A stretch of 64,000 nucleotides of DNA. Source: Chryseobacterium geocarposphaerae. GTDB lineage: Bacteria > Bacteroidota > Bacteroidia > Flavobacteriales > Weeksellaceae. Location of the stretch: NCBI RefSeq assembly GCF_002797535.1, contig NZ_PGFD01000003.1, forward strand, positions 124,001 through 188,000. Reading direction: 5' to 3'. Of the stretch, positions 2,590 to 13,950 are shown in pieces. Within the stretch, counting starts at the first letter, position 1, and every line of letters starts with the position of its first letter. Both the position numbers and the translations under genes were made by a program. The notes under the pieces are model-generated. The model had not been told where the DNA came from. It saw only the letters and a program-made list of their open reading frames with translations, and made no database searches.

Positions 2590-3045
2590 ATGATACCTTC
2601 ACAAAATCAAAATATTTCTCAGCTGGCACTCGAGCTAGGGCTAGCAATGAATGAGATGAAAAGCAGATTAAGGCAGAAAATTCAGACAAGAATTAATGAA
2701 TATGACTCTTCGCTTTCTTTTGAACTTATCGAAATTCTGGGAATTCTGTGGAGAAATGAAGGAATCAATCAACAAGAGATCAGCACCCAGATCAGCAAAG
2801 ACAAATCAAGCATAACCTATCTGATTAATAATCTGACAAAAAGAGGACTCGTAGAACGGGTTGAAAATAAAAACGACCGAAGGAATAGACAGGTTTTTCT
2901 TACACAAAGCGGAAAGAAACTTATGGAAAAATTATATCCATGGGCTTTGGAACTTTACCAAAAGGCAGCGGAAGGAATTTATGAGAATGAACTTAAAAAT
3001 GCATTGCTTTTAATCAAACAAATGACAGCTAATCTTAACCAATAA
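2590..3045 (+). CDS. MarR-family transcriptional regulator
   Basis: The 151-residue product has the MarR layout: an N-terminal dimerisation helix, a winged helix-turn-helix over about residues 55-110 (INQQEISTQISKDKSSITYL as recognition region, then wing residues RVENKNDRRNRQ with the typical DxRxR pattern), and C-terminal dimerisation helices. MarR proteins usually repress their own operon and release DNA on binding a small molecule or after Cys oxidation; no Cys is present here, so a ligand is more likely than thiol sensing. It is followed 29 nt later by a universal stress protein gene and preceded by a palindromic operator, which suggests co-transcription and autoregulation. Confidence 0.88.
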   Translation: MIPSQNQNISQLALELGLAMNEMKSRLRQKIQTRINEYDSSLSFELIEILGILWRNEGINQQEISTQISKDKSSITYLINNLTKRGLVERVENKNDRRNRQVFLTQSGKKLMEKLYPWALELYQKAAEGIYENELKNALLLIKQMTANLNQ

Positions 3046-3074: not shown

Positions 3075-3923
3075 ATGAGAACAATACTTGTACCTGTTGA
3101 CACAACACAAACTACCGAAAATGCAGTAAAGCTTTCTGCAGACTGGGCAAAACAATACGGATATGATCATATTATCCTTTTAAAAACAAATAACGAATCT
3201 GTATTCGAATATCTGCACTTAGCAGAAGGGCACTCCTTCGTCAACGAAGAAAGTATCAATATGATATTGCAAGACACAGAAGAATTATTAGAGAAATTAA
3301 GCCGAATTATTATTGAAAAGTCGCCCGACATAAAGGTTTCAAAAGCAACGACCGATATGTCTTTGATAAGGAGCATTAATGATATTATAAAAGATCAGCA
3401 GAATGTTGAATTAATTATTTTAGGCAGTGATGATAAAACTTCTGTGACGGAGAGTTTCATTTCGGAAAATATTATAGATATTGCAAGAACAAGTCCTGTA
3501 AAAACCTTAATTGTTCCCAATAGTTACACTTACAACGCAATCAGAAACATATTAATACCTTGTGATATTGATAGTATCACAAAATTAGACAGATTGTTTC
3601 ACTACAAATCGATTATCCACCAAAAAGATATCCATTTGTCGCTTTTAAATATCCATAAAAAAGTAAACAAAGATATTACAGAATCTAAAAAAGAAGAGCT
3701 TGAAAAATACATTTACCAAAATCTGAATGATATTCCCAATAGTATCCACTACTTATACGACGAAAACATCATCAATGGCATTTTATCTTTTGCCTCATTA
3801 AATAAAACCGATCTTGTGATTGCATTACCGGGAAAACACAGTTTCCTTTATTATATAGCCAACAGAAGCATTTCCGAAGGAATTTATCAAAATGTAAGTC
3901 AGCCTGTTTTAATTCTGAAATAA
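3075..3923 (+). CDS. Universal stress protein, tandem Usp domains
   Basis: The 282-residue cytoplasmic protein consists of two Usp domains, about residues 1-150 and 155-282. The first opens with the typical MRTILVPVDTTQTTENAV, and a strand-turn ELIILGSDDKT corresponds to the nucleotide-loop region; the second opens with IRNILIPCDID. The classic ATP-binding GxxGS-type loop is not well kept in either half, so ATP binding is doubtful. Tandem Usp proteins of this length are common in flavobacteria and are linked to stress and stationary survival. The gene follows marR by 29 nt and is closed by a strong terminator at 3952, so the operon has two genes. Confidence 0.85.
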   Translation: MRTILVPVDTTQTTENAVKLSADWAKQYGYDHIILLKTNNESVFEYLHLAEGHSFVNEESINMILQDTEELLEKLSRIIIEKSPDIKVSKATTDMSLIRSINDIIKDQQNVELIILGSDDKTSVTESFISENIIDIARTSPVKTLIVPNSYTYNAIRNILIPCDIDSITKLDRLFHYKSIIHQKDIHLSLLNIHKKVNKDITESKKEELEKYIYQNLNDIPNSIHYLYDENIINGILSFASLNKTDLVIALPGKHSFLYYIANRSISEGIYQNVSQPVLILK

Positions 3924-4134: not shown

Positions 4135-5163
4135 CTAAATTAATTTTTCACACTCAATAATACTGGAAATTTCCGTAGCTGTCTGAATCAAATTTTTAAA
4201 GGTTAATCCTGCACTTTCCAGAAGGAATTTAAATTCACTCAATGTACGCTCTTTTCCTGTTGTCATCGCCATAATATTGATATCTAATAACTTTCCGGCG
4301 TGTGGTGTATTCCGCGAGTCATCCGGAATAACAGAATCAATAATTAGTAATTTACCTCCTAAAGGCATCGCTTTTTGTATGTTTTTTAAAATCTTAATCG
4401 ACTCATCATCATTCCAATCGTGGATAACCCATTTTGTCATATAAAGATCTGCACCGGCAGGAACCTCTTCAAAAAAACTTCCGCCAAGTACAGTACATCT
4501 TCCTTTCATATCCTCGGGTATATGCTGTGCTGTTTGTTCTATTACATAAGGTTCATCGAAAACAATCCCAGTACTTTCAGGTGTTGCACTTAAAACAGCA
4601 AACATCATAGCTCCGTTTCCGCCGCCTATATCTACCAACGTTTTGTATGGAGAGAAATCGTAGGTATCAATAATTGTTTTTAAAACAGCACCGGACATTC
4701 CTGCCATAGCTTTTGAAAGATTAACCCCAGCTTCCGGGTTTTGCTTATAATAATCCCAAACAGATGCCCCGTGAGCATATTCAAAAGGTACTTTTCCTGT
4801 TTTTACACCATAAGTTAACTCTCCAAAAGCAGGATAATGCTCTCCAAGATTGGCTAAAGCCCAGGGTTTTACTGACCCCGGAACCTCTGTTAATAAAGTC
4901 GATCCAAAATCATTTAATTCAAACGCTCCATCTTCCCTTTCTTCAAATATTCCAACGCTGGTAACGGCTCTTAATAAGCGGTATAGCGACTTTTCATCTG
5001 AATCGGTTTCTTTTGCTAATTCTGACAAGGTTTTAGCACCGTTCAGGAGCTTATCTGCAATATCTAACTGCGCAACTGAGCGAATACAAGCAGCCACCCA
5101 ATAGCCACTTATTAATTCATACATTTTGAAAGATAACTCTGGTTTTCTTGGTAAGTTTTTCAT
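4135..5163 (-). CDS. SAM-dependent O-methyltransferase (plant/hydroxyneurosporene type)
   Basis: The 342-residue enzyme has an N-terminal dimerisation winged-helix domain (residues 1-95) and a Rossmann methyltransferase domain. SAM motif I is VDIGGGNG (177-184), and the motif KWVIHDWNDDES carries the His (His248) that acts as general base in plant-type O-methyltransferases, followed by GGKLLIIDSVIP. The family methylates hydroxyl groups on small aromatic or polyketide-like molecules. It starts 100 nt from the divergent NRPS gene, which makes it a likely tailoring enzyme for that product, for example O-methylating a hydroxypyrazine. The family call is secure; the substrate is inferred from position. 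Confidence 0.85.
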   Translation of the reverse strand: MKNLPRKPELSFKMYELISGYWVAACIRSVAQLDIADKLLNGAKTLSELAKETDSDEKSLYRLLRAVTSVGIFEEREDGAFELNDFGSTLLTEVPGSVKPWALANLGEHYPAFGELTYGVKTGKVPFEYAHGASVWDYYKQNPEAGVNLSKAMAGMSGAVLKTIIDTYDFSPYKTLVDIGGGNGAMMFAVLSATPESTGIVFDEPYVIEQTAQHIPEDMKGRCTVLGGSFFEEVPAGADLYMTKWVIHDWNDDESIKILKNIQKAMPLGGKLLIIDSVIPDDSRNTPHAGKLLDINIMAMTTGKERTLSEFKFLLESAGLTFKNLIQTATEISSIIECEKLI

Positions 5164-5185
5164 ATAATGATTTATTAATATTAAA

Positions 5186-5210
5186 AATTAAATAGAATGT
5201 GAATTTAATT
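5186..5210. promoter_or_regulatory. Inverted repeat in the divergent OMT/NRPS control region
   Basis: AATTAAAT (5186-5193) and ATTTAATT (5203-5210) form an 8-bp inverted repeat with a 9-nt spacer in the roughly 100-bp gap between the methyltransferase and the NRPS. A shared regulator site would fit, but the gap is nearly pure A and T, so chance is likely. No clear TAnnTTTG box was found for either gene. Confidence 0.25.
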
Positions 5211-5263
5211 ATTTATTTACATAATTTTATATTATTAAAAAAATTAAAACTAAAACCAGCCAA

Positions 5264-8200
5264 ATGAACAAAATCTCAACACAGGGAACAACTGTATTGT
5301 CTTTATTGGATAATGCGGTTATGCTGAATTCTACAAAAACAGCACTTATTTACGAAAATGAAAGAATTTCTTTTAAACAGCTTGACATTAATTCAAACCA
5401 GTTATCAAACTACCTAAAACAAAAAGGAATATTTACGGAGGTTCCTCTTTGCTTTTGTTTAGATCAATCCATAGAAAAGGTTATCGTTATGTTATCCATC
5501 TGGAAATCGGGTGCAGCGTATGTGTCCCTTGATCCGTTGTATCCGGATAATCGTTTGCAGCATATTTTGGAGGATACCAACAGCCCCATGCTAATCACTA
5601 AGAAAAAATTTGCCGAAAAATTTCATTTTTATAAAGGTGAAATTATTTTCATTGATGAAAAAAAAGAAGACATTCTCCAAATGCCTAAAGAAAATCCTGA
5701 TTCCGAAATCAAAAACGGCTTAGCCTATTTAGCCTATACCTCTGGAAGTACAGGAGCTCCGAAAGCGGTAATGGCAGAACATAAAGGATTGGGCAATTTC
5801 ATACAATATTTCGGGGAATTTTTGAATACAGAAAAAGAAGATACCGCACTTAATATTTCATCATCAAATTTTGATGGAATTGTATTAGATCTTTGGGTTC
5901 CTCTTTCATTAGGAATGACAGTCTATCTTTATCCGGACAACAGAATAGTAGGTGATGCGCTGCTTAGTTACATCTGTCAAAACAATATCACTGTTCTCCC
6001 TTATTTACCGGTCTCGATTTTGGCAACTTTACCGACGGACAAGCAAATCGGAAGCTTACGAAAAATATGTACCGGTGGAGAAGCTCCAATAGTTAAGGTG
6101 ATTGAATATTGGAAGACAAAAGTCGAATTAATTAATATCTATGGCCCTACTGAAACTACCGTGGTGGTAAGCGGATTTAAATTTAGTGAAACCCATCCTA
6201 TCGGCACAATTGGGCAACCCTTACGCAACGTAGATTTCTATGTTTTAGATCAGGAGATGAATATTTTGCCTACTAATGAGGTTGGAGAACTTTACATTGG
6301 AGGAATCCAGGTTTCAAGAGGATATTACAATCGTCCGGATCTTACAGCTGAACGATTTTTACCGTTCACAACACCTGACGGAAAAACAACAAGAGTATAT
6401 AAAACAGGCGATCTTGTAAGACAATTGGAAGATCATACCATTGAATTTGTTGGAAGAGCGGATCAGCAAGTGAAAGTCAGAGGTTTTCGTGTAGAGCCTG
6501 CAGAAATTGAAGAAAATATTAAGCAGTCAAATCTTGTTGAAAACTGTGTTATCGTTGTAAAACAAGAGCAAAATGAAAAACAATTAATTTGTTTTTATAA
6601 AAATAACAAAGACAAAAACACTTTTCCGGAAGCTATAAGAGCTTATTTGTTTGAACGATTGCCTTCTTATATGATTCCTTCAAAATTTTTGGAAATTCAG
6701 GAGTTTCCATTAACCGCAAATGGAAAAATTGATAAATCATTCTTAAACACCCTAGAAATCACTGAAGAAAAAAGACATTTTTTTGTTCCACCTCAGACTG
6801 AGTTACAAAAGCAATTAGCCAATGCCTGGAGCACAGTTTTAAATATAAAATCAGTTGGAATTTATGATAATTTCTTTCAGTTTGGAGGAAATTCAATTCT
6901 GGCTTATAAACTTATTTATTTGATTAGACAGGAATTACATCTTCCTTTACAAATTGCTGATCTTTTTTTATATCCATCCATTCACGAGTTAGAGAAATAT
7001 ATTACTGATTTAGAAAAAACCGAACAAAATGAAACCGGTCCATCAATACCTGATAATCATCCCGTTCAATTATCTTTTCAGCAACAGAGCTTATGGTTTC
7101 TAGACAAACTATATGGCAGTGTAGCCTATAATGTGGGTGCGCTATACCCAGTCAATGAAGCTATTTCTTTACCTACTTTAGAAAAGGCCTTTAAAGAATT
7201 ATTAAGAAAACACAGCATTCTAAGAACAATTATAGAAGAAAAAGAAAATCAGGCTTTCCAGTCCGCAATGAGTGAAAATAACTGGATTTTAGAAAATTTA
7301 TATGATGCTGAAAAAGTTCAGGAACTCATAAAAATTCCGTTTGATCTGCAAAGAGATTATATGCTCCGGGCTTATGTTATTCATAAAAATGGCAAGCCGG
7401 CTTCATTGTTTTTGATGGTGCATCACATTGTTACAGATGGATGGTCGATGCCTTTAATTGTTCAGGAAATTAACACTTTATATCATCAAATCTCAAATAA
7501 CCAGGAAGATAAAAGAGTTTTGACAGAATATAAAAATTACGTTATTTACCAATCTAAACAGGATAAAGAAAACGGAATCAATTTCTGGAAAGAGTATTTG
7601 GAAGATGTTTCCGTGCTTCAGATTGCCCACGACTTCAAAAAAGAATATCCGCATCCGGATTCTGGTAAACAGTATCAATTTGAAGTTGATGAAAAACTAA
7701 CCGCAACATTACAGAGAATTTCAGAAGAGCATTCCGCCACATTGTACATCACTCTATTGTCCGCTTTTGGCTTGCTGATGCAATATTACAGTGGTCAACA
7801 GGATATTTGTGTAGGAAGTCCATTTGCTAACCGGCCGCACCGTTTTGACAAAACCATCGGGTATTTTACCAATATGCTTCCGATCCGTATGAAAATTGAT
7901 GGGAATCCTGTCTTTTCAGATTTTTTACACCAAATAAAAAATATGATTCCGCAAGTTTTTCAACACCAGGAAACTCCGCTGGAAACAATTATCAGTAATG
8001 TGATTAAAGACAGGTTTGCCGGGCACAATCCTTTATTTCAAAATGTTTTTGTCTTACAAAATCCAAATGAAAAATTTGAGATTTCGACTCCAATAGAAAA
8101 TCATAATGCTGAATGGATTTTTAATCAAAAAACAAAATTTGATTTACAATTTGAAGTGCTTCCGATTGGCGAAAAATTAAAAGTAAATATTGATTATTCT

Positions 8201-11200
8201 GATGTTTTATTTAAAGAAAAAACCATTACGGAAATGGCCAAAGCATATTTGTTCATTTTAGCATCAATCGCTTTTAATCCTGATCAAAAAATTGGAGATA
8301 TTGATATTTATTCTGTTTTAGAAAAGAGAGAAATTAATGAATTTGAAACCAACGAAGCTCCAAAAACTTTAGTAGCATTATTTGAACAACAGGTTGAAAA
8401 AACACCAGACAAAACCGCATTGATTCTTTCCGGACTGGGAATTTCTTATCAGGATTTAAATAAAAAATCAAGTCATATTGCCAGTCAATTAATTGCTGCC
8501 GGAGTTAAAAGTGAAGATTTTGTTGCCTGTTATCAGGAACAGTCTATAGAGCGGATTATAACGCTTTTAGGGATTATAAAGTCCGGCGCCGCTTACGTTC
8601 CTTTGGATACGGCCTACCCCATTGATCGGATTAAAACGATCCTTGAGGATACAAAACCAAAATTTTTAATTACAACAGTAAAATTTGATTTAAAAAGTGA
8701 AATGGAACGACCTGTTCTTTTCATTGAAAATCTGATGAATGCTCCTTTAGAGCATATTCAGAAAAGTTACAAAGACACACATGCTCCTACCGATCTTGCT
8801 TATGTTATCCATACTTCCGGAACCACAGGACAGCCAAAAGGAGTGCTTATTGAACATCAATCGCTAGGAAATTTCATCACTGAATACGGAAATTTACTTG
8901 AGCTCAGTGAAAACGATAGAACGTTGCAGTTTTCTCCCTATAATTTCGACGGTTCAGTCATTGATATGTGGATTCCGTTGACGAAAGGTGCCACCATTCA
9001 TCTTTATCCAAATAATAAATTGTTGGGTGACCATCTATCCGAATTTATTGCTCAACATTCGATTTCTGTAATTCCTTTTATTTCACCTTCTGTGCTTTCC
9101 ACAATTCCCCAAAATGAAAATTTACCTTTATTAAAAGTAATCGGAACCGGTGCAGAGACCTGCCCTCCACAAGTTAGCCAGTATTGGAAAAAACGCGCAA
9201 AACTTCTTAATATGTACGGTCCAACAGAATCTACTGTTGCGGTCAATACATTTGTTTTTGATGATATACATCCTGACAATACCATAGGAACAGCCATTAA
9301 AAATATGAAGCTATATGTTTTAGACCAATACCTTCGTCAGGTTCCCGATGGTGTTATTGGTGAGCTTTATATTTCAGGAATCCAGCTTTCAAGAGGTTAC
9401 CTGAATAAACCGGAACTTACTGCAGAAAAATTTATTAAAAATCCTTTCGCTAATAATGAAACCAGCTTCTACAGCCGAATGTATAAAACCGGAGATCAGG
9501 TAAAAATATTAGCCGATGGAATGCTGGAATATGTCGGAAGAGCCGATTATCAGGTAAAAATAAGAGGCTACCGTATTGAATTGGCCGAAATCGAAAATAC
9601 GCTTTGTAAAATTAAAGGGATAAAAAATGCGACAGTTCATATTCATAAAACTCTGGGGGGTGTAAAATCTTTAAGAGCTTTTGTTTCCGGCGATGCTCCT
9701 ATTGCTCATATTAAAAGTGAACTAAACAGGCAACTCCCTTCCTATATGATCCCTAATGAAATTTTTATGGTAGCAACAATACCTGTAAAATCAAATGGTA
9801 AAATAGACCTGGAATCGCTCAACCAAATGGCCGAAAATCTAATCAATGAAACCACCGGAATTCAGGAAGAGCCATTAAATGATTATGAAAAAATCATCAG
9901 AGAAATATGGAGCGAAGTGCTGGAACGCAAAATTACAAGCCTGGAAGACGATTTTTTTCAATTGGGAGGACATTCATTGTTACTTACAAAGCTTTACAAC
10001 AAACTTTTCAAACATTTTCCTAATACAATTTCTTTGAGCGAATTATACATCAACAATTCAATCAGGAAATTAGCTTTACTGATAGAAGAAAGAGAAGCCA
10101 GGCCCGAGCTCCAAAATTATGGATTAGGGCAAGATCCGTTAAGTGAGGAAATAAAAAAAGATGCAACAATTGCTTCTGATGCCTTTAAATTTAATGTTTC
10201 AAAAAAAGGAAATTTCACCAACCCGAAAGCTATTTTACTTACGGGAGTCACAGGATTTGTAGGACTAAATATATTGGTAGAATTATTAGCCTCCTCTTCG
10301 GCAGATATTTATTTACTGATAAGGGCAGATAATGAAACGCTTGCCAAAGAAAGATTGTTTGAAGCATTGGAAAACCAATTAATTTCAGCGGATATTTTTG
10401 ATGAAAAAAGAATTAAGATTTTAGCCGGCGATCTTGCAAAACCATTGCTGGGCCTTTCAACAGAAAAATATGATGAACTTGCAGAAATTATAGATGTTGT
10501 GCATCACGCCGGAAGCGCTGTGAACTTCATTCAGCCCTATTCTTATATGAAAGCTGCCAATGTAGATGCTCTTTATACTTTGATCAGGTTTATAACCACT
10601 CATCAACTCAAACAATTATCTTTATTATCAACGGTCGGGGTATTTAGCTGGGAACATTATTTCACCAAACCTGCATTGATTATGGAAGATACTGATACCA
10701 AACCTGTATTTAAATATTTAAGTCGTGATATGGGCTATATCCAGAGCAAATGGGTGATGGAACGGGTAGCGCAGGAAGCTATAAAACAGGGCGTTCCCAT
10801 TGTAATTTTCAGGTTAGGTTATGTTTTTTGCCATAGCCTGACCGGAGCAACCGCAAAATACCAATGGTGGGGATCACTGATAAAAACCTGTATCCAATTA
10901 AAAGCGTACCCAATTTTAATTGATCAAAAGGAGGAATTAACGATGGTAGATTTCGTCAGTAAAGCCATCACCTATATTTCCAAAAATCCTGATTCTATTG
11001 GTCAAATTTTCCATTTAAGCCCGGAACCAGAAGATAATATGACCGTAACGGAATTCTTTGAGCTACTTCGTGAAGAATTTAATTTTGATCTAAAACCAGT
11101 TCCTTATCCGCAATGGCGCGCCCTTTGGGAAAACGACGAAAACAGTCCGCTCTATCCTCTTTTGAATCTTTTCAAATTCGTTGCTTATGATAATAAATCC

Positions 11201-11338
11201 ATTATTGAGATTCATCAAAATACTCCTGATTTTGATATTACCAATACCAAAAAATTCCTCGAAGGCAGTTCTATTGAGAACAAAACAGTAAAACGTGATA
11301 ATGTAGAAGCATTTTGTAAATATTTAGGAGTTCTTTAA
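5264..11338 (+). CDS. Two-module non-ribosomal peptide synthetase with terminal reductase (A-T-C-A-T-R)
   Basis: The 2024-residue protein reads in order: adenylation domain 1 (P-loop YTSGSTGAPK near 160, NFDG with Asp204, GPTE, A10 NGKID); carrier 1 (FGGNSI, Ser544); LCL-like condensation domain (HHIVTDGWS from His720); adenylation domain 2 (HTSGTTGQPKG near 1185, Asp1229, GPTES); carrier 2 (LGGHSL, Ser1571); and a thioester reductase domain from about 1640 (TGVTGFVG at 1660-1667 binds NADPH; YIQSK at 1825-1829 is the catalytic Tyr-Lys). It should join two amino acids and release the dipeptide as an aldehyde, which can cyclise to a dihydropyrazinone and oxidise to a pyrazinone, as for S. aureus AusA. 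No thioesterase, epimerase or MbtH gene is present. It overlaps its PPTase gene by 1 nt. Confidence 0.93.
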   Translation: MNKISTQGTTVLSLLDNAVMLNSTKTALIYENERISFKQLDINSNQLSNYLKQKGIFTEVPLCFCLDQSIEKVIVMLSIWKSGAAYVSLDPLYPDNRLQHILEDTNSPMLITKKKFAEKFHFYKGEIIFIDEKKEDILQMPKENPDSEIKNGLAYLAYTSGSTGAPKAVMAEHKGLGNFIQYFGEFLNTEKEDTALNISSSNFDGIVLDLWVPLSLGMTVYLYPDNRIVGDALLSYICQNNITVLPYLPVSILATLPTDKQIGSLRKICTGGEAPIVKVIEYWKTKVELINIYGPTETTVVVSGFKFSETHPIGTIGQPLRNVDFYVLDQEMNILPTNEVGELYIGGIQVSRGYYNRPDLTAERFLPFTTPDGKTTRVYKTGDLVRQLEDHTIEFVGRADQQVKVRGFRVEPAEIEENIKQSNLVENCVIVVKQEQNEKQLICFYKNNKDKNTFPEAIRAYLFERLPSYMIPSKFLEIQEFPLTANGKIDKSFLNTLEITEEKRHFFVPPQTELQKQLANAWSTVLNIKSVGIYDNFFQFGGNSILAYKLIYLIRQELHLPLQIADLFLYPSIHELEKYITDLEKTEQNETGPSIPDNHPVQLSFQQQSLWFLDKLYGSVAYNVGALYPVNEAISLPTLEKAFKELLRKHSILRTIIEEKENQAFQSAMSENNWILENLYDAEKVQELIKIPFDLQRDYMLRAYVIHKNGKPASLFLMVHHIVTDGWSMPLIVQEINTLYHQISNNQEDKRVLTEYKNYVIYQSKQDKENGINFWKEYLEDVSVLQIAHDFKKEYPHPDSGKQYQFEVDEKLTATLQRISEEHSATLYITLLSAFGLLMQYYSGQQDICVGSPFANRPHRFDKTIGYFTNMLPIRMKIDGNPVFSDFLHQIKNMIPQVFQHQETPLETIISNVIKDRFAGHNPLFQNVFVLQNPNEKFEISTPIENHNAEWIFNQKTKFDLQFEVLPIGEKLKVNIDYSDVLFKEKTITEMAKAYLFILASIAFNPDQKIGDIDIYSVLEKREINEFETNEAPKTLVALFEQQVEKTPDKTALILSGLGISYQDLNKKSSHIASQLIAAGVKSEDFVACYQEQSIERIITLLGIIKSGAAYVPLDTAYPIDRIKTILEDTKPKFLITTVKFDLKSEMERPVLFIENLMNAPLEHIQKSYKDTHAPTDLAYVIHTSGTTGQPKGVLIEHQSLGNFITEYGNLLELSENDRTLQFSPYNFDGSVIDMWIPLTKGATIHLYPNNKLLGDHLSEFIAQHSISVIPFISPSVLSTIPQNENLPLLKVIGTGAETCPPQVSQYWKKRAKLLNMYGPTESTVAVNTFVFDDIHPDNTIGTAIKNMKLYVLDQYLRQVPDGVIGELYISGIQLSRGYLNKPELTAEKFIKNPFANNETSFYSRMYKTGDQVKILADGMLEYVGRADYQVKIRGYRIELAEIENTLCKIKGIKNATVHIHKTLGGVKSLRAFVSGDAPIAHIKSELNRQLPSYMIPNEIFMVATIPVKSNGKIDLESLNQMAENLINETTGIQEEPLNDYEKIIREIWSEVLERKITSLEDDFFQLGGHSLLLTKLYNKLFKHFPNTISLSELYINNSIRKLALLIEEREARPELQNYGLGQDPLSEEIKKDATIASDAFKFNVSKKGNFTNPKAILLTGVTGFVGLNILVELLASSSADIYLLIRADNETLAKERLFEALENQLISADIFDEKRIKILAGDLAKPLLGLSTEKYDELAEIIDVVHHAGSAVNFIQPYSYMKAANVDALYTLIRFITTHQLKQLSLLSTVGVFSWEHYFTKPALIMEDTDTKPVFKYLSRDMGYIQSKWVMERVAQEAIKQGVPIVIFRLGYVFCHSLTGATAKYQWWGSLIKTCIQLKAYPILIDQKEELTMVDFVSKAITYISKNPDSIGQIFHLSPEPEDNMTVTEFFELLREEFNFDLKPVPYPQWRALWENDENSPLYPLLNLFKFVAYDNKSIIEIHQNTPDFDITNTKKFLEGSSIENKTVKRDNVEAFCKYLGVL

Positions 11339-12000
11339 TGATAAAAATATTTTATACAAAGTTTAATCCTGAAGATATGACAGCCATTTTAGATCAATGG
11401 CTGTCTATTCTTCCTTTTCAGCTTCAAAAAATTAATCAAAGCTATAAAAACAAAGAAGATCAGGTGAGAAATCTATCAGGCAAATTACTGTTGGCTGAAG
11501 CTTTAAAAAATATTGGTTATGGATCAATTGCTCTTGATACTATTCAATATAACCAATTTAAAAAACCTTACTTATCCAAAGATTTTGATTTCAGTATTAG
11601 CCATTCCGGAAGGTACGTTTTTTGCGTAATTGGAAAAAACCTGAAACTAGGGCTCGATATTGAAGAAATAAAGCCAATTAACTTTTCTGAAATCACAAAC
11701 ATAATGAGTAATTCTGAATGGAAACAGATAAACGAAGCATCAAATCCTTTACGTCAATTCTTTACACTCTGGACACTCAAAGAAGCTGCCATCAAAGCCG
11801 AAGGAACAGGCTTTTTCACTGATCTAAATACAATTAAAGTAAAAGGTAATACCATCCACATCGGAGATAATATTTGGTTTTCGAATAAATTAGTCTTTGA
11901 TGAAAATTATTCGGGTCACCTCGTAACATCAAATTTAGAAAGGGGTTATGAGATGATTTTTAAAGATTTAACCATTGCGAATTATGATAAAAAGAAATAG
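11338..12000 (+). CDS. 4'-phosphopantetheinyl transferase, Sfp type
   Basis: The 220-residue enzyme carries the Sfp-type signatures FSISHSG (residues 85-91), LGLDIEEI with Mg-binding Asp107 and Glu109, and LWTLKEAAIKAEGTG (Trp145 to Gly158; Lys148, Glu149 and Lys153 are catalytic). It transfers phosphopantetheine from CoA to the two carrier serines of the NRPS. Its ATG shares one base with the NRPS stop (TAATG at 11336-11340), so the two are translationally coupled, as in the AusA-AusB pair. It may also serve other carrier proteins. The call is secure. Confidence 0.93.
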   Translation: MIKIFYTKFNPEDMTAILDQWLSILPFQLQKINQSYKNKEDQVRNLSGKLLLAEALKNIGYGSIALDTIQYNQFKKPYLSKDFDFSISHSGRYVFCVIGKNLKLGLDIEEIKPINFSEITNIMSNSEWKQINEASNPLRQFFTLWTLKEAAIKAEGTGFFTDLNTIKVKGNTIHIGDNIWFSNKLVFDENYSGHLVTSNLERGYEMIFKDLTIANYDKKK

Positions 12001-12299: not shown

Positions 12300-12323
12300 T
12301 ACACTATTTTGATGAAACAGTTG

Positions 12324-12397
12324 CGATCCGGACGGGACTCGAACCCGCGACCTCCGCCGTGACAGGGCGGCATTCTAACCAGCTGAACTACCGGATC
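12324..12397 (-). tRNA. tRNA-Asp (GTC), copy 1
   Basis: The minus strand reads GATCCGGTAGTTCAGCTGG at the 5' end, anticodon loop CTGTCAC with anticodon GTC, T loop GGTTCGAGTCC, and acceptor 3' half CCGGATC with discriminator G. Length is 74 nt and CCA is not encoded. This copy is separated by 1.27 kb and one gene from the three others, which have the same sequence. Confidence 0.97.
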
Positions 12398-12439
12398 TTT
12401 TTACAATTTCAGAAATATTTCCCTCTGTTATTGTGGTTG

Positions 12440-12470
12440 CAAATATATAGTTTTTTTCAATATTAACAAA
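12440..12470 (-). promoter_or_regulatory. Promoter of tRNA-Asp copy 1
   Basis: On the minus strand TTTG (12467-12470) is followed after exactly 19 nt by TATATTTG (12440-12447), the full Bacteroidota -33/-7 pattern, about 43 nt before the tRNA 5' end. Confidence 0.75.
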
Positions 12471-12599
12471 CTTTAATCTCCGATTTCATGCACAATAAAC
12501 ATAAATTACAGATTTTCAAATCTATTATTTTAATACGAATAAAAATTGAGAATTGAAAAATCAATTCCCAATCAAATAAAACGTTAAAATCAATGCATA

Positions 12600-13355
12600 T
12601 TATCTGGTAGTATAACCTCCGTTTGCGAAAATGGTCTGTCCAGTAATCCACCACCCATCAGTTACTAAAAACTCAACCAAAGGAGCAATATCTTTAATAT
12701 CCGTAAGACCGCCCAATGCCGATGCAGATTTATGATAAGCTACAGCATCCTCAGCTTCCTGCCCGTAGAAGAAAGGAGTATCCATTGGCCCCGGAGCCAC
12801 TGCTGTAACAGAAATTCCTCTTGCCCCAAATTCTTTGGAAGCAGCGCGTGTAAAATGTTCAACCGGCGCTTTCATCCCCGCATACGTAGAATACAACCCT
12901 GTATAAGCAGCAAGAAGCGATGTCACAATCGTACAGATTTTCCCATGGTCATTTACTTTCTTTCCCGCTTCCTGTAGAAAGAAATAGGCTACTTTTGAGT
13001 TGATATCCGACATTGTATCATATTCCTTTTCCGTAGTCTCTGTAAACGGCTTTTTAAGTACCATTCCAACGGTATTGATCGCAATATCAATTCCTCCGAA
13101 TTTACTTTTGGCTTCATCAAAAAATTTGGTAATATTTTCAACTTTCGTAAGGTTTCCCTGAAACAAAAAAGCTTCAGCCCCTAAAGCGTGAACTTCCGCT
13201 AATGTTTTCTCACTTTCTTCTCTTGAGCTTTCACTGTTATAATGAATAGCGAGCTTTGCACCTTTAGCTGCAAAATCTTTGCTTAAGAGTCCTCCTAAGT
13301 TCTTGCCTCCTCCGGCAATTAAAACAACTTTTCCTTTCACATCGTGTTTTGACAT
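12600..13355 (-). CDS. Short-chain dehydrogenase/reductase
   Basis: The 251-residue classical SDR has a glycine-rich NAD(P) loop GGGKNLGGLLSKDFA near residue 15, IHYNSES after strand 2 (suits NADPH), INTVG, catalytic Ser in TSLLAAYTGLY, and YAGMK with the catalytic Tyr and Lys. It ends in GYTTR, with the typical C-terminal motif TGQTIFANGG. The substrate cannot be told from sequence. It lies alone between tRNA-Asp copies 1 and 2 in the same orientation, so it interrupts an otherwise tandem tRNA array. Confidence 0.9.
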   Translation of the reverse strand: MSKHDVKGKVVLIAGGGKNLGGLLSKDFAAKGAKLAIHYNSESSREESEKTLAEVHALGAEAFLFQGNLTKVENITKFFDEAKSKFGGIDIAINTVGMVLKKPFTETTEKEYDTMSDINSKVAYFFLQEAGKKVNDHGKICTIVTSLLAAYTGLYSTYAGMKAPVEHFTRAASKEFGARGISVTAVAPGPMDTPFFYGQEAEDAVAYHKSASALGGLTDIKDIAPLVEFLVTDGWWITGQTIFANGGYTTR

Positions 13356-13630
13356 AATATTTTTTTATTGGTTAATGATACAAATATGAAAATTTGTAAA
13401 TGTCTGACGATGATAAATTCCTCTCAGGTTAGAAGAATTTCGGAATTTATTGTGCTGAAAATATAGGAAAATTTAAATCAAAAAGACTGTAAACCAAATC
13501 AATGAAATATAAAACATTAAATATATTTAGAAAATATTAAAAATAAATCATAGCGATAAGATCGATACAGAAGAGATTTTTTAATAAATGTCTATCCACT
13601 TATATAAGCCTTATTTTAAATAACAGACAA
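13356..13630. other. Gene-free AT-rich gap upstream of the SDR
   Basis: I see no open frame with a start and coding character here on either strand, and no tRNA. It probably holds the SDR promoter, for which no exact TAnnTTTG match was found. Confidence 0.4.
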
Positions 13631-13631
13631 T

Positions 13632-13660
13632 AAAAAAGCAGTAAAAATAAATTTTACTGC
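13632..13660 (-). terminator. Terminator of the triple tRNA-Asp operon
   Basis: GCAGTAAAA (13638-13646) pairs with TTTTACTGC (13652-13660); on the minus strand the stem is followed by six T. It lies 7 nt beyond the 3' end of the last tRNA. Confidence 0.8.
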
Positions 13661-13666
13661 TTTCTG

Positions 13667-13740
13667 CGATCCGGACGGGACTCGAACCCGCGACCTCCGC
13701 CGTGACAGGGCGGCATTCTAACCAGCTGAACTACCGGATC
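13667..13740 (-). tRNA. tRNA-Asp (GTC), copy 2
   Basis: Same 74-nt sequence as the copy at 12324: acceptor GATCCGG/CCGGATC, anticodon GTC. It is the last tRNA of a three-gene transcript that runs leftwards from the promoter at 13988. Confidence 0.97.
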
Positions 13741-13772
13741 AATTTTTTTTAAAGAAATTGAGAAAACTTCCG

Positions 13773-13846
13773 CGATCCGGACGGGACTCGAACCCGCGAC
13801 CTCCGCCGTGACAGGGCGGCATTCTAACCAGCTGAACTACCGGATC
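13773..13846 (-). tRNA. tRNA-Asp (GTC), copy 3
   Basis: Identical 74-nt tRNA-Asp. The spacers on both sides are near copies of each other (both contain AAAGAAATTGAGAAAACTTC), which shows that the array grew by tandem duplication of tRNA plus spacer. Confidence 0.97.
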
Positions 13847-13876
13847 AATTTTTTAAAGAAATTGAGAAAACTTCTG

Positions 13877-13950
13877 CGATCCGGACGGGACTCGAACCCG
13901 CGACCTCCGCCGTGACAGGGCGGCATTCTAACCAGCTGAACTACCGGATC
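13877..13950 (-). tRNA. tRNA-Asp (GTC), copy 4
   Basis: Identical 74-nt tRNA-Asp and the first gene of the three-tRNA transcript. Confidence 0.97.

Follow-up and report, generated by a model that had tools for sequence, protein, structure and literature searches.

The window, i.e. the whole stretch of DNA that was analysed (64,000 nucleotides from Chryseobacterium geocarposphaerae), carries three adjoining biosynthetic genes. An O-methyltransferase gene (OMT; PF00891 with a PF08100 dimerisation domain, ORF call and Pfam) lies on the minus strand at 4135..5163 and is separated by 100 nt between the two start codons (5164..5263) from the gene for a dimodular nonribosomal peptide synthetase (NRPS) of 2024 amino acids, which is located on the plus strand at 5264..11338 (ORF call, Pfam, NCBIfam and alignment). 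The latter is followed on the same strand by the gene for an Sfp/AusB-type 4'-phosphopantetheinyl transferase (PPTase; 11338..12000; ORF call, Pfam and NCBIfam), the start of which has one base in common with the NRPS stop. Open reading frames and Pfam thus agree on the arrangement given in the preliminary description: a complete dimodular reductase NRPS, an overlapping PPTase and a divergent OMT at a distance of 100 nt. The block GTGAATTTA from the OMT/NRPS intergenic region of the window is also present at three loci besides the window's (sp. 52, C. carnipullorum and S. puteale), a recurrence that weakly suggests a shared control site. The pattern GTGAATTTANT occurs once in the window where 0.59 matches were expected, which is not significant by itself, and a promoter scan returned 23 promoter-like sites against 34.5 expected.

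Flanking genes were considered as further members of the cluster. The MarR (2590-3045) and Usp (3075-3923) genes were rejected, as no homologue was detected in the other cluster loci compared; in four relatives (16 kb each) the same pair was present, and none of the seven further flank genes of the window that were tested lay with it. When an empty site of the cluster was sought in four relatives (16 kb each), no shared flanks were found. The SDR gene at 12600-13355 was rejected as a tailoring gene because 10 of 24 genomes, the window's included, have it at E <= 1e-90.

The Pfam content of the NRPS (two AMP-binding, one Condensation, two PP-binding and one NAD_binding_4 domains) corresponds to the order A-T-C-A-T-R, all on the plus strand. 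The domains A1 (5285..6763) and A2 (8360..9838) were delimited approximately by alignment and structure search, and the carrier domains T1 (6800..6994, ends approximate; Ser544) and T2 (9893..10078; Ser1571) by Pfam and alignment. The condensation domain, with the motif HHIVTDG, occupies 7064..8335 (Pfam), and the thioester reductase (R) domain 10196..11335 (302 bits against TIGR01746). The window's NRPS was aligned with 39 database relatives (40 sequences in all). Both carrier serines, the second histidine of the C domain, both A-domain lysines and the GxxGxxG motif, Tyr and Lys of the reductase were retained in 40 of 40 sequences; A1 is disrupted in one of them (P0016). The pocket codes were read by eye as DGLPCGIVVK (A1) and DGIPGGMVAK (A2), at positions that we take to follow GrsA numbering, and we know of no recorded code for either. 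Both pockets are non-polar in the alignment, which argues against Tyr and against charged or polar residues; the closest solved structures to both domains are chains of LgrA. No C domain precedes A1, and the first residue would therefore retain a free amine. Two modules, a free first amine and a terminal R domain with an intact active site are together the features of an NRPS-R pyrazinone pathway. A protein of 1034 amino acids with A-T-R architecture, resembling in its make-up the minimal ATRed synthetase of Xenorhabdus indica (see below), is encoded elsewhere in the same genome.

Comparison with the aureusimine/phevalin system AusA/AusB of Staphylococcus, on which the preliminary description had drawn, was borne out in part. 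Common to both are the A-T-C-A-T-R order, a dedicated PPTase and the free first amine, whereas the reductase domain of the window is of a different lineage. The R domain alone scored 171 bits against MxcG, the best of the single-enzyme NCBIfam models, and 56 bits against AusA; its best solved structures in the PDB were 8v1x and MxaA (4.2e-48 for MxaA, 1.1e-9 for the R domain of AusA). The whole NRPS reached 1007.7 bits over both modules of the AusA equivalog NF047350, below the cut-off of 2500, and AusA orthology was rejected on account of this score and the reductase lineage. The PPTase (PF01648, 6.7e-15) gave 69.7 bits against the AusB model NF047349, below the cut-off of 225, and is not assigned to AusB. 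By sequence comparison the R domain is MxaA/MxcG-like, and the likeness to AusA is confined to domain order. To our knowledge, ausAB is not accompanied by OMT and EthD genes.

MxaA and MxcG are four-electron reductases, so an alcohol product is possible. The R domain would then deliver a dipeptidyl amino alcohol or a derivative, and no pyrazinone ring would be formed enzymatically. This outcome is considered unlikely: the free N-terminal amine would be expected to trap the aldehyde intramolecularly, an aliphatic amino alcohol is no obvious acceptor for an OMT of PF00891, and the EthD-family partner found in related loci (see below) would be left unexplained.

The OMT belongs to PF00891 (1.9e-52; 178.1 bits against a gathering score of 22.3, with the catalytic His present) and also matches PF08100 (2e-12). 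Among 20 aligned OMTs, H248 and E305 are invariant and D276 is nearly so; His248, Asp276 and Glu305 occupy what we take to be the positions of the catalytic residues in plant enzymes of PF00891. The plant hydroxypyrazine OMTs VvOMT1-4 presumably belong to the same family. These enzymes convert 3-alkyl-2-hydroxypyrazines into methoxypyrazines (PMC6943733), the reaction type that is putatively assigned to the window's OMT; the ring-forming steps in plants are not known, whereas here a ring-forming NRPS would adjoin the OMT. Acceptors in PF00891 are diverse, with flavonoid, alkaloid and anthracycline enzymes among the listed solved relatives of the OMT. This diversity lends some weight to an arrangement in which the NRPS product is a pyrazinone or dihydropyrazinone and the OMT acts elsewhere, on a ring nitrogen, on the hydroxyl of a side chain or on a precursor that has yet to be loaded. 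Its probability is judged to be low but appreciable, since the non-polar A pockets speak against the phenol of Tyr and no hydroxylase is conserved: in a comparison of neighbours, only NRPS, OMT, PPTase and EthD-family genes were common across loci.

Nine non-decayed orthologous loci were examined (Chryseobacterium, Flavobacterium, Pedobacter, Sphingobacterium, Gynurincola and one record filed as Glaciecola), and the OMT gene stands divergently beside the NRPS gene in all nine. In loci retrieved by an NRPS search it adjoins in six of six further orthologous cases, with a transposase gene in between in one, and in loci retrieved by an OMT search the NRPS is present in seven of nine. The PPTase gene adjoins the NRPS gene or sits in the OMT operon in 7/9 non-decayed loci; the F. 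frigidimaris copy contains an in-frame stop. Identity matrices of NRPS and OMT are correlated (r = 0.945, 22 pairs), as are those of EthD with NRPS (r = 0.91) and with OMT (0.92; 9 pairs each), and none of 5000 permutations was as high; such agreement indicates shared history and does not by itself indicate function. In S. athyrii, NRPS and OMT are both broken. That NRPS and OMT act in one pathway, as previously proposed, is supported by the constant divergent arrangement of the two genes, by their matching degrees of divergence and by their decay together. The same evidence makes it highly improbable that the OMT is an unrelated neighbour, a reading for which an orphan paralogue (55-60% identical) in other Chryseobacteria, standing without an NRPS in the four genomes read, could be adduced. 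In the OMT tree, sequence P0165 groups with the Gynurincola OMT; with P0165 included among the NRPS-linked OMTs, these fall into a single clade (SH-aLRT 90).

The distribution of the cluster, which the preliminary description had not noted, is patchy (3 of 173 genomes of the same genus). This small biosynthetic cluster has probably moved from one bacterium to another as a whole. Carriage on plasmids was rejected, as no OMT match of at least 60% was found in 72,556 plasmid records. Transfer to Gammaproteobacteria was rejected as well: record CP034120, filed as Glaciecola amylolytica, has a 16S identity of 84.6% to Chryseobacterium and 86.0% to Flavobacterium (one of three 16S matches compared), and is thus as close to both genera as they are to each other (84.8-85.0%). 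On this basis, CP034120 is read as a Bacteroidota genome.

A fourth gene, absent from the preliminary description, encodes an EthD-family protein of about 110 amino acids directly behind the OMT gene in 6/9 non-decayed loci. A search of the window's genome did not detect it, and it has probably been lost three times across the cluster loci. Scanned against TIGR02118 (2 of 6 proteins), it gave 52.1 and 45.9 bits, above the cut-off of 30.5, and a match to EthD in the PDB (3bf4) was obtained at 1.8e-14. The cluster proteins differ from the EthD family in falling below the cut-off of Pfam PF07110 and in forming a separate sequence group tied to the NRPS/OMT cluster. In a literature search for EthD enzymes, the word EthD occurred in none of the matches listed (12 of 69).

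A pathway may be proposed from these features. The PPTase would, judging from its family, arm both carrier domains; A1 and A2 would load two non-polar amino acids, to be joined by the C domain, and the R domain would release the dipeptide as an aldehyde, as has been described for other members of this synthetase class. Attack of the first residue's free amine on the aldehyde would close a dihydropyrazinone, to be oxidised to a 3,6-disubstituted pyrazin-2(1H)-one; a 3,6-dialkylpyrazinone is favoured by the free first amine and the non-polar A pockets. The EthD-family protein of the relatives probably helps ring closure or aromatisation. Ring closure and aromatisation alike are expected to proceed spontaneously, and this would account for the repeated loss of the protein, also from the window's genome. 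The OMT would finally methylate the enol oxygen. The best explanation of the cluster is therefore taken to be NRPS-dependent formation of a pyrazinone with O-methylation to a 2-methoxy-3,6-dialkylpyrazine, to which a probability of roughly one half is assigned. The course from NRPS-R via aldehyde and cyclic imine to pyrazinone, with a likely spontaneous oxidation, has been reported (PMC10979478, PMC12153313). Protease inhibition by the dipeptide aldehydes of this enzyme class, those of related gut bacterial synthetases included, has also been reported (PMC10979478, PMC12153313), and the dipeptide aldehyde could accordingly be the active product, with ring formation and methylation serving for disposal or self-protection; this is improbable, as neither a resistance protease nor a transporter is conserved across loci, and the retention of the OMT points to a role for the methylated compound.

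For the preferred methoxypyrazine, bacterial volatiles offer a comparison: 2-methoxy-3,6-dimethyl-, -diisobutyl- and -di-sec-butylpyrazine (Table 1 of PMC3039465) display the pattern that O-methylation of a 3,6-dialkylpyrazinone would be expected to give. The same table contains 2-methoxy-3,5-diisobutylpyrazine, the pattern of which is not given directly by the proposed route. Pyrazines were reported from the headspace of C. polytrichastri, and in the excerpt of that paper methoxy occurs only within a reagent name (PMC7756357). In the Gram-negative myxobacteria, CorA (coralinone) likewise makes an alkylated pyrazinone by way of an NRPS; the system differs in that the pyrazinone is 5-methylated without a methyltransferase step, labelled SAM not being incorporated, and in that the protease CorB is co-clustered in place of an OMT (PMC10979478). 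The minimal ATRed of Xenorhabdus indica has in common the R-domain aldehyde release toward a pyrazine that is proposed here, and consists of one module without a C domain, whereas the window's NRPS is dimodular (PMC7586950). Among the matches listed from the open-access literature, no locus with the NRPS-R, OMT and PPTase make-up was found described, in keeping with the earlier statement that no such flavobacterial locus was known, nor was a gene cluster for the bacterial 2-methoxy-3,6-dialkylpyrazine volatiles that includes the ring-forming genes.

A wider reading is put forward more tentatively, at less than even odds: a portable cassette of three to four genes (NRPS-R, PPTase, EthD-type cyclase/aromatase and hydroxypyrazine OMT) may account, across Bacteroidota, for the 2-methoxy-3,6-dialkylpyrazines reported since 2005, and the cofactor-free EthD protein may be a new kind of pyrazinone aromatase. 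This partner, conserved yet repeatedly missing, offers a clean test of enzyme-assisted aromatisation. With a likely ring-building synthetase and a fitting OMT side by side, the proposed route becomes directly testable in culturable bacteria. Methoxypyrazines are potent odorants that bear on wine and food flavour and on insect semiochemistry.

The cluster consists of three open reading frames, located by an ORF scan and assigned with Pfam: an O-methyltransferase (OMT, 342 aa, 4135-5163, minus strand; PF00891 and a dimerisation domain), an NRPS (2024 aa, 5264-11338, plus strand; two adenylation, one condensation and two carrier domains and one NAD_binding_4 reductase) and an Sfp-type PPTase (220 aa, 11338-12000, plus strand; PPTase fold), which starts at the last base of the NRPS frame (1-base overlap). 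The gene set of the preliminary description, an OMT with a dimodular reductase-ended NRPS and a PPTase, was thereby confirmed in both position and domain content. The domain order of the NRPS is A-T-C-A-T-R, with no condensation domain ahead of the first adenylation domain (A1) according to Pfam, and its catalytic residues are conserved in the alignment of relatives.

Six further orthologous loci were retrieved with the NRPS (Chryseobacterium sp. 52, C. carnipullorum, F. frigidimaris, S. puteale, Sphingobacterium sp. ML3W and S. athyrii), and the OMT gene adjoins the NRPS gene in all six. When the OMT was used for the search, an NRPS was present at seven of nine loci; the OMTs of the two remaining loci, in Siphonobacter (L037) and Pseudobacter (L038), are just 40-41% identical. 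The divergent OMT/NRPS pair occurs in 9/9 distinct non-decayed loci (window, sp. 52, C. carnipullorum, CP034120, S. puteale, F. frigidimaris, P. cryoconitis, ML3W and Gynurincola), with a DDE transposase gene between the two genes in ML3W (L069:4906-6075). The Gynurincola NRPS frame begins about 60-75 residues late (L036:9674-10000), so this copy may contain a frameshift or an assembly error. A readable A1 start sequence was seen in the intergenic stretch before this frame, beside a run of A. In S. athyrii, OMT and NRPS are both broken by deletions and the PPTase frame is still full length (L073:7289-10755). In the protein database, 15 contig sizes recur in both the NRPS family matches (40: P0001-P0038, P0040 and P0041, one of them partial) and the OMT matches listed, equal size being an indirect sign of one contig.

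The PPTase gene adjoins the NRPS gene or sits in the OMT operon in seven of the nine loci; the ML3W and Gynurincola proteins are distant (31-36% identity), and that of F. frigidimaris contains an in-frame stop (L034:3104-3727). C. carnipullorum and P. cryoconitis have no PPTase at the cluster, and their other PPTases, elsewhere in the genome, are 29-34% identical.

A fourth gene, encoding a protein of about 110 aa, lies directly behind the OMT in 6/9 non-decayed loci. Two of the six proteins were scanned against NCBIfam and matched TIGR02118 (EthD family; 52.1 and 45.9 bits, cut-off 30.5), and the alignment of all six matched the EthD structure 3bf4 of the PDB at 1.8e-14; Pfam EthD gave sub-threshold matches for three and no match for the other three. 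The genome listed as F. aquidurense has consecutive locus tags for EthD (B0A67_15845), OMT (15850) and NRPS (15855). Whole-genome searches with the family alignment found one copy each in six of ten genomes and none in the window genome, CP034120, S. puteale and S. athyrii. On the NRPS tree, where 6/12 'present' labels rest on equal contig size, the window NRPS branches among relatives that carry EthD, and EthD presence requires three changes for three absent rows, the maximum possible. EthD would accordingly read as an ancestral, dispensable part of the cluster that has been lost on three occasions; the tree count by itself is also compatible with gains. Flavobacterium sp. F-65 (P0016 and P0278, on contigs of equal size), with a disrupted NRPS A1 and an EthD protein of only 64 aa, appears to hold another decaying cluster copy.

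The NRPS and OMT identity matrices are correlated (r=0.945 for 22 pairs, 15 of them assigned by equal contig size; 0/5000 permutations as high), which is evidence of a common history, not of a common function. Between the window and sp. 52, dN is 0.156 (NRPS), 0.114 (OMT) and 0.245 (PPTase), and dS is 1.74, 3.19 and 1.20, respectively, synonymous sites being close to saturation; low dN at near-saturated dS points to purifying selection on all three genes.

The window genome was placed in Chryseobacterium via its named protein matches. With the NRPS as query, matches (E <= 1e-250) were found in 3/173 same-genus genomes and, in overlapping genome sets, in 2/395 genomes across the phylum (window genome counted in both), in 1/299 Flavobacterium genomes and in 8/399 genomes of the family of S. 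puteale; of these eight, only three are orthologues (66%, 53% and one 70% fragment), and five are matches of 34-36% identity that lie within larger synthetases. Among the compared loci, flanking genes are shared only by S. puteale and S. athyrii, which are closely related, apart from one 310-aa gene present at three Sphingobacterium loci. In the OMT tree, the S. puteale protein nests among Chryseobacterium-clade OMTs. The patchy occurrence of the cluster, its varying flanks and this nesting indicate that it has probably moved by horizontal transfer. The shared gene (310-311 aa; L069:12590-13522, L070:1038-1973, L073:13236-14171) is 46-47% identical between ML3W and the other two loci. Around the window copy, no mobile element was recognised. 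Four tRNA-Asp genes lie directly downstream (12323-13950), and this region is a possible insertion hotspot. The cluster end adjoins the tRNA-Asp group, and an SDR gene sits between the first tRNA-Asp and the other three. The record CP034120.1 (L032) bears the name Glaciecola amylolytica THG-3.7, and its 16S resembles Bacteroidota sequences (one of three 16S matches compared, the other two being shorter); it is probably mislabelled or from a mixed culture.

The OMT also matched 9/35 other same-genus genomes: eight contain a full-length paralogue (55-59% identical; two in genome G015) and the ninth a short, stop-containing fragment. In the four genomes read (L081-L084), this orphan OMT has no NRPS nearby; sp. 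52 carries the whole cluster in the same chromosomal slot (L067:4558-14823), which adjoins an ssb-like gene (named by eye). Cluster and orphan OMTs form sister clades in the OMT tree, and the latter may be left over from an earlier form of the cluster or descend from an ancestor of the cluster OMT. The window genome encodes a second synthetase, a monomodular A-T-R protein of 1034 aa (G000:C2:477746-480769; L085:7734-10838), matched by proteins of about 1040-1075 aa in at least 14/36 same-genus genomes, window genome counted, one copy having an in-frame stop; it may make its own dialkylpyrazine.

Because no condensation domain precedes A1, residue 1 would keep a free amine. Pocket codes were taken by eye from an alignment of 40 members, with positions placed by GrsA numbering. 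Both codes, DGLPCGIVVK for A1 (same in 14/40) and DGIPGGMVAK for the second adenylation domain, A2 (same in 18/40), are non-polar, and without naming the amino acids they argue against Tyr, charged or polar residues. In sp. 52, A1 (DAIPGGLVAK) is similar to A2 (DGIPGGVVAK), a likeness that would fit the loading of two similar amino acids.

The proposed likeness to AusA, the staphylococcal aureusimine synthetase, did not hold for the reductase domain, which alone scored 302 bits with the general thioester-reductase model of NCBIfam, 171 with MxcG, 165 with aminoadipate reductase and 56 with AusA, and which matched the solved structures 8v1x at 1.7e-51, MxaA at 4.2e-48 and AusA at only 1.1e-9. 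MxaA and MxcG are four-electron reductases, and an alcohol is therefore a possible product of the NRPS.

For the methoxypyrazine reading, the reductase would release a dipeptide aldehyde, which would close to a cyclic imine and oxidise to a pyrazinone, as described for this enzyme class (PMC10979478, PMC12153313). As the dipeptide would offer no phenol, a PF00891 enzyme would most naturally act on the enol oxygen of the ring, and the OMT would methylate this oxygen; grapevine OMTs perform such O-methylation of hydroxypyrazine rings (PMC6943733). The expected product type, a 2-methoxy-3,6-dialkylpyrazine, appears in a list of volatiles from bacteria (PMC3039465, Table 1), credited there to work on Chondromyces and marine bacteria published in 2005; one 3,5-disubstituted isomer in the same table would not be a direct product of the proposed route.

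In the literature searched (mainly open-access; the best 20-30 of hundreds to thousands of matches for broad questions, and complete lists, assessed by title and opening lines of the abstract, for two narrow ones), no paper was found that links methoxypyrazines with a gene cluster or an NRPS, and the suggestion that no flavobacterial locus of this make-up had been described stood within that literature. The cluster is a real Bacteroidota family, undescribed in the literature searched, and probably a variant of the NRPS-reductase pyrazinone pathway. A methoxypyrazine product is the best single explanation, at a probability of about 0.5, and is straightforward to test experimentally.
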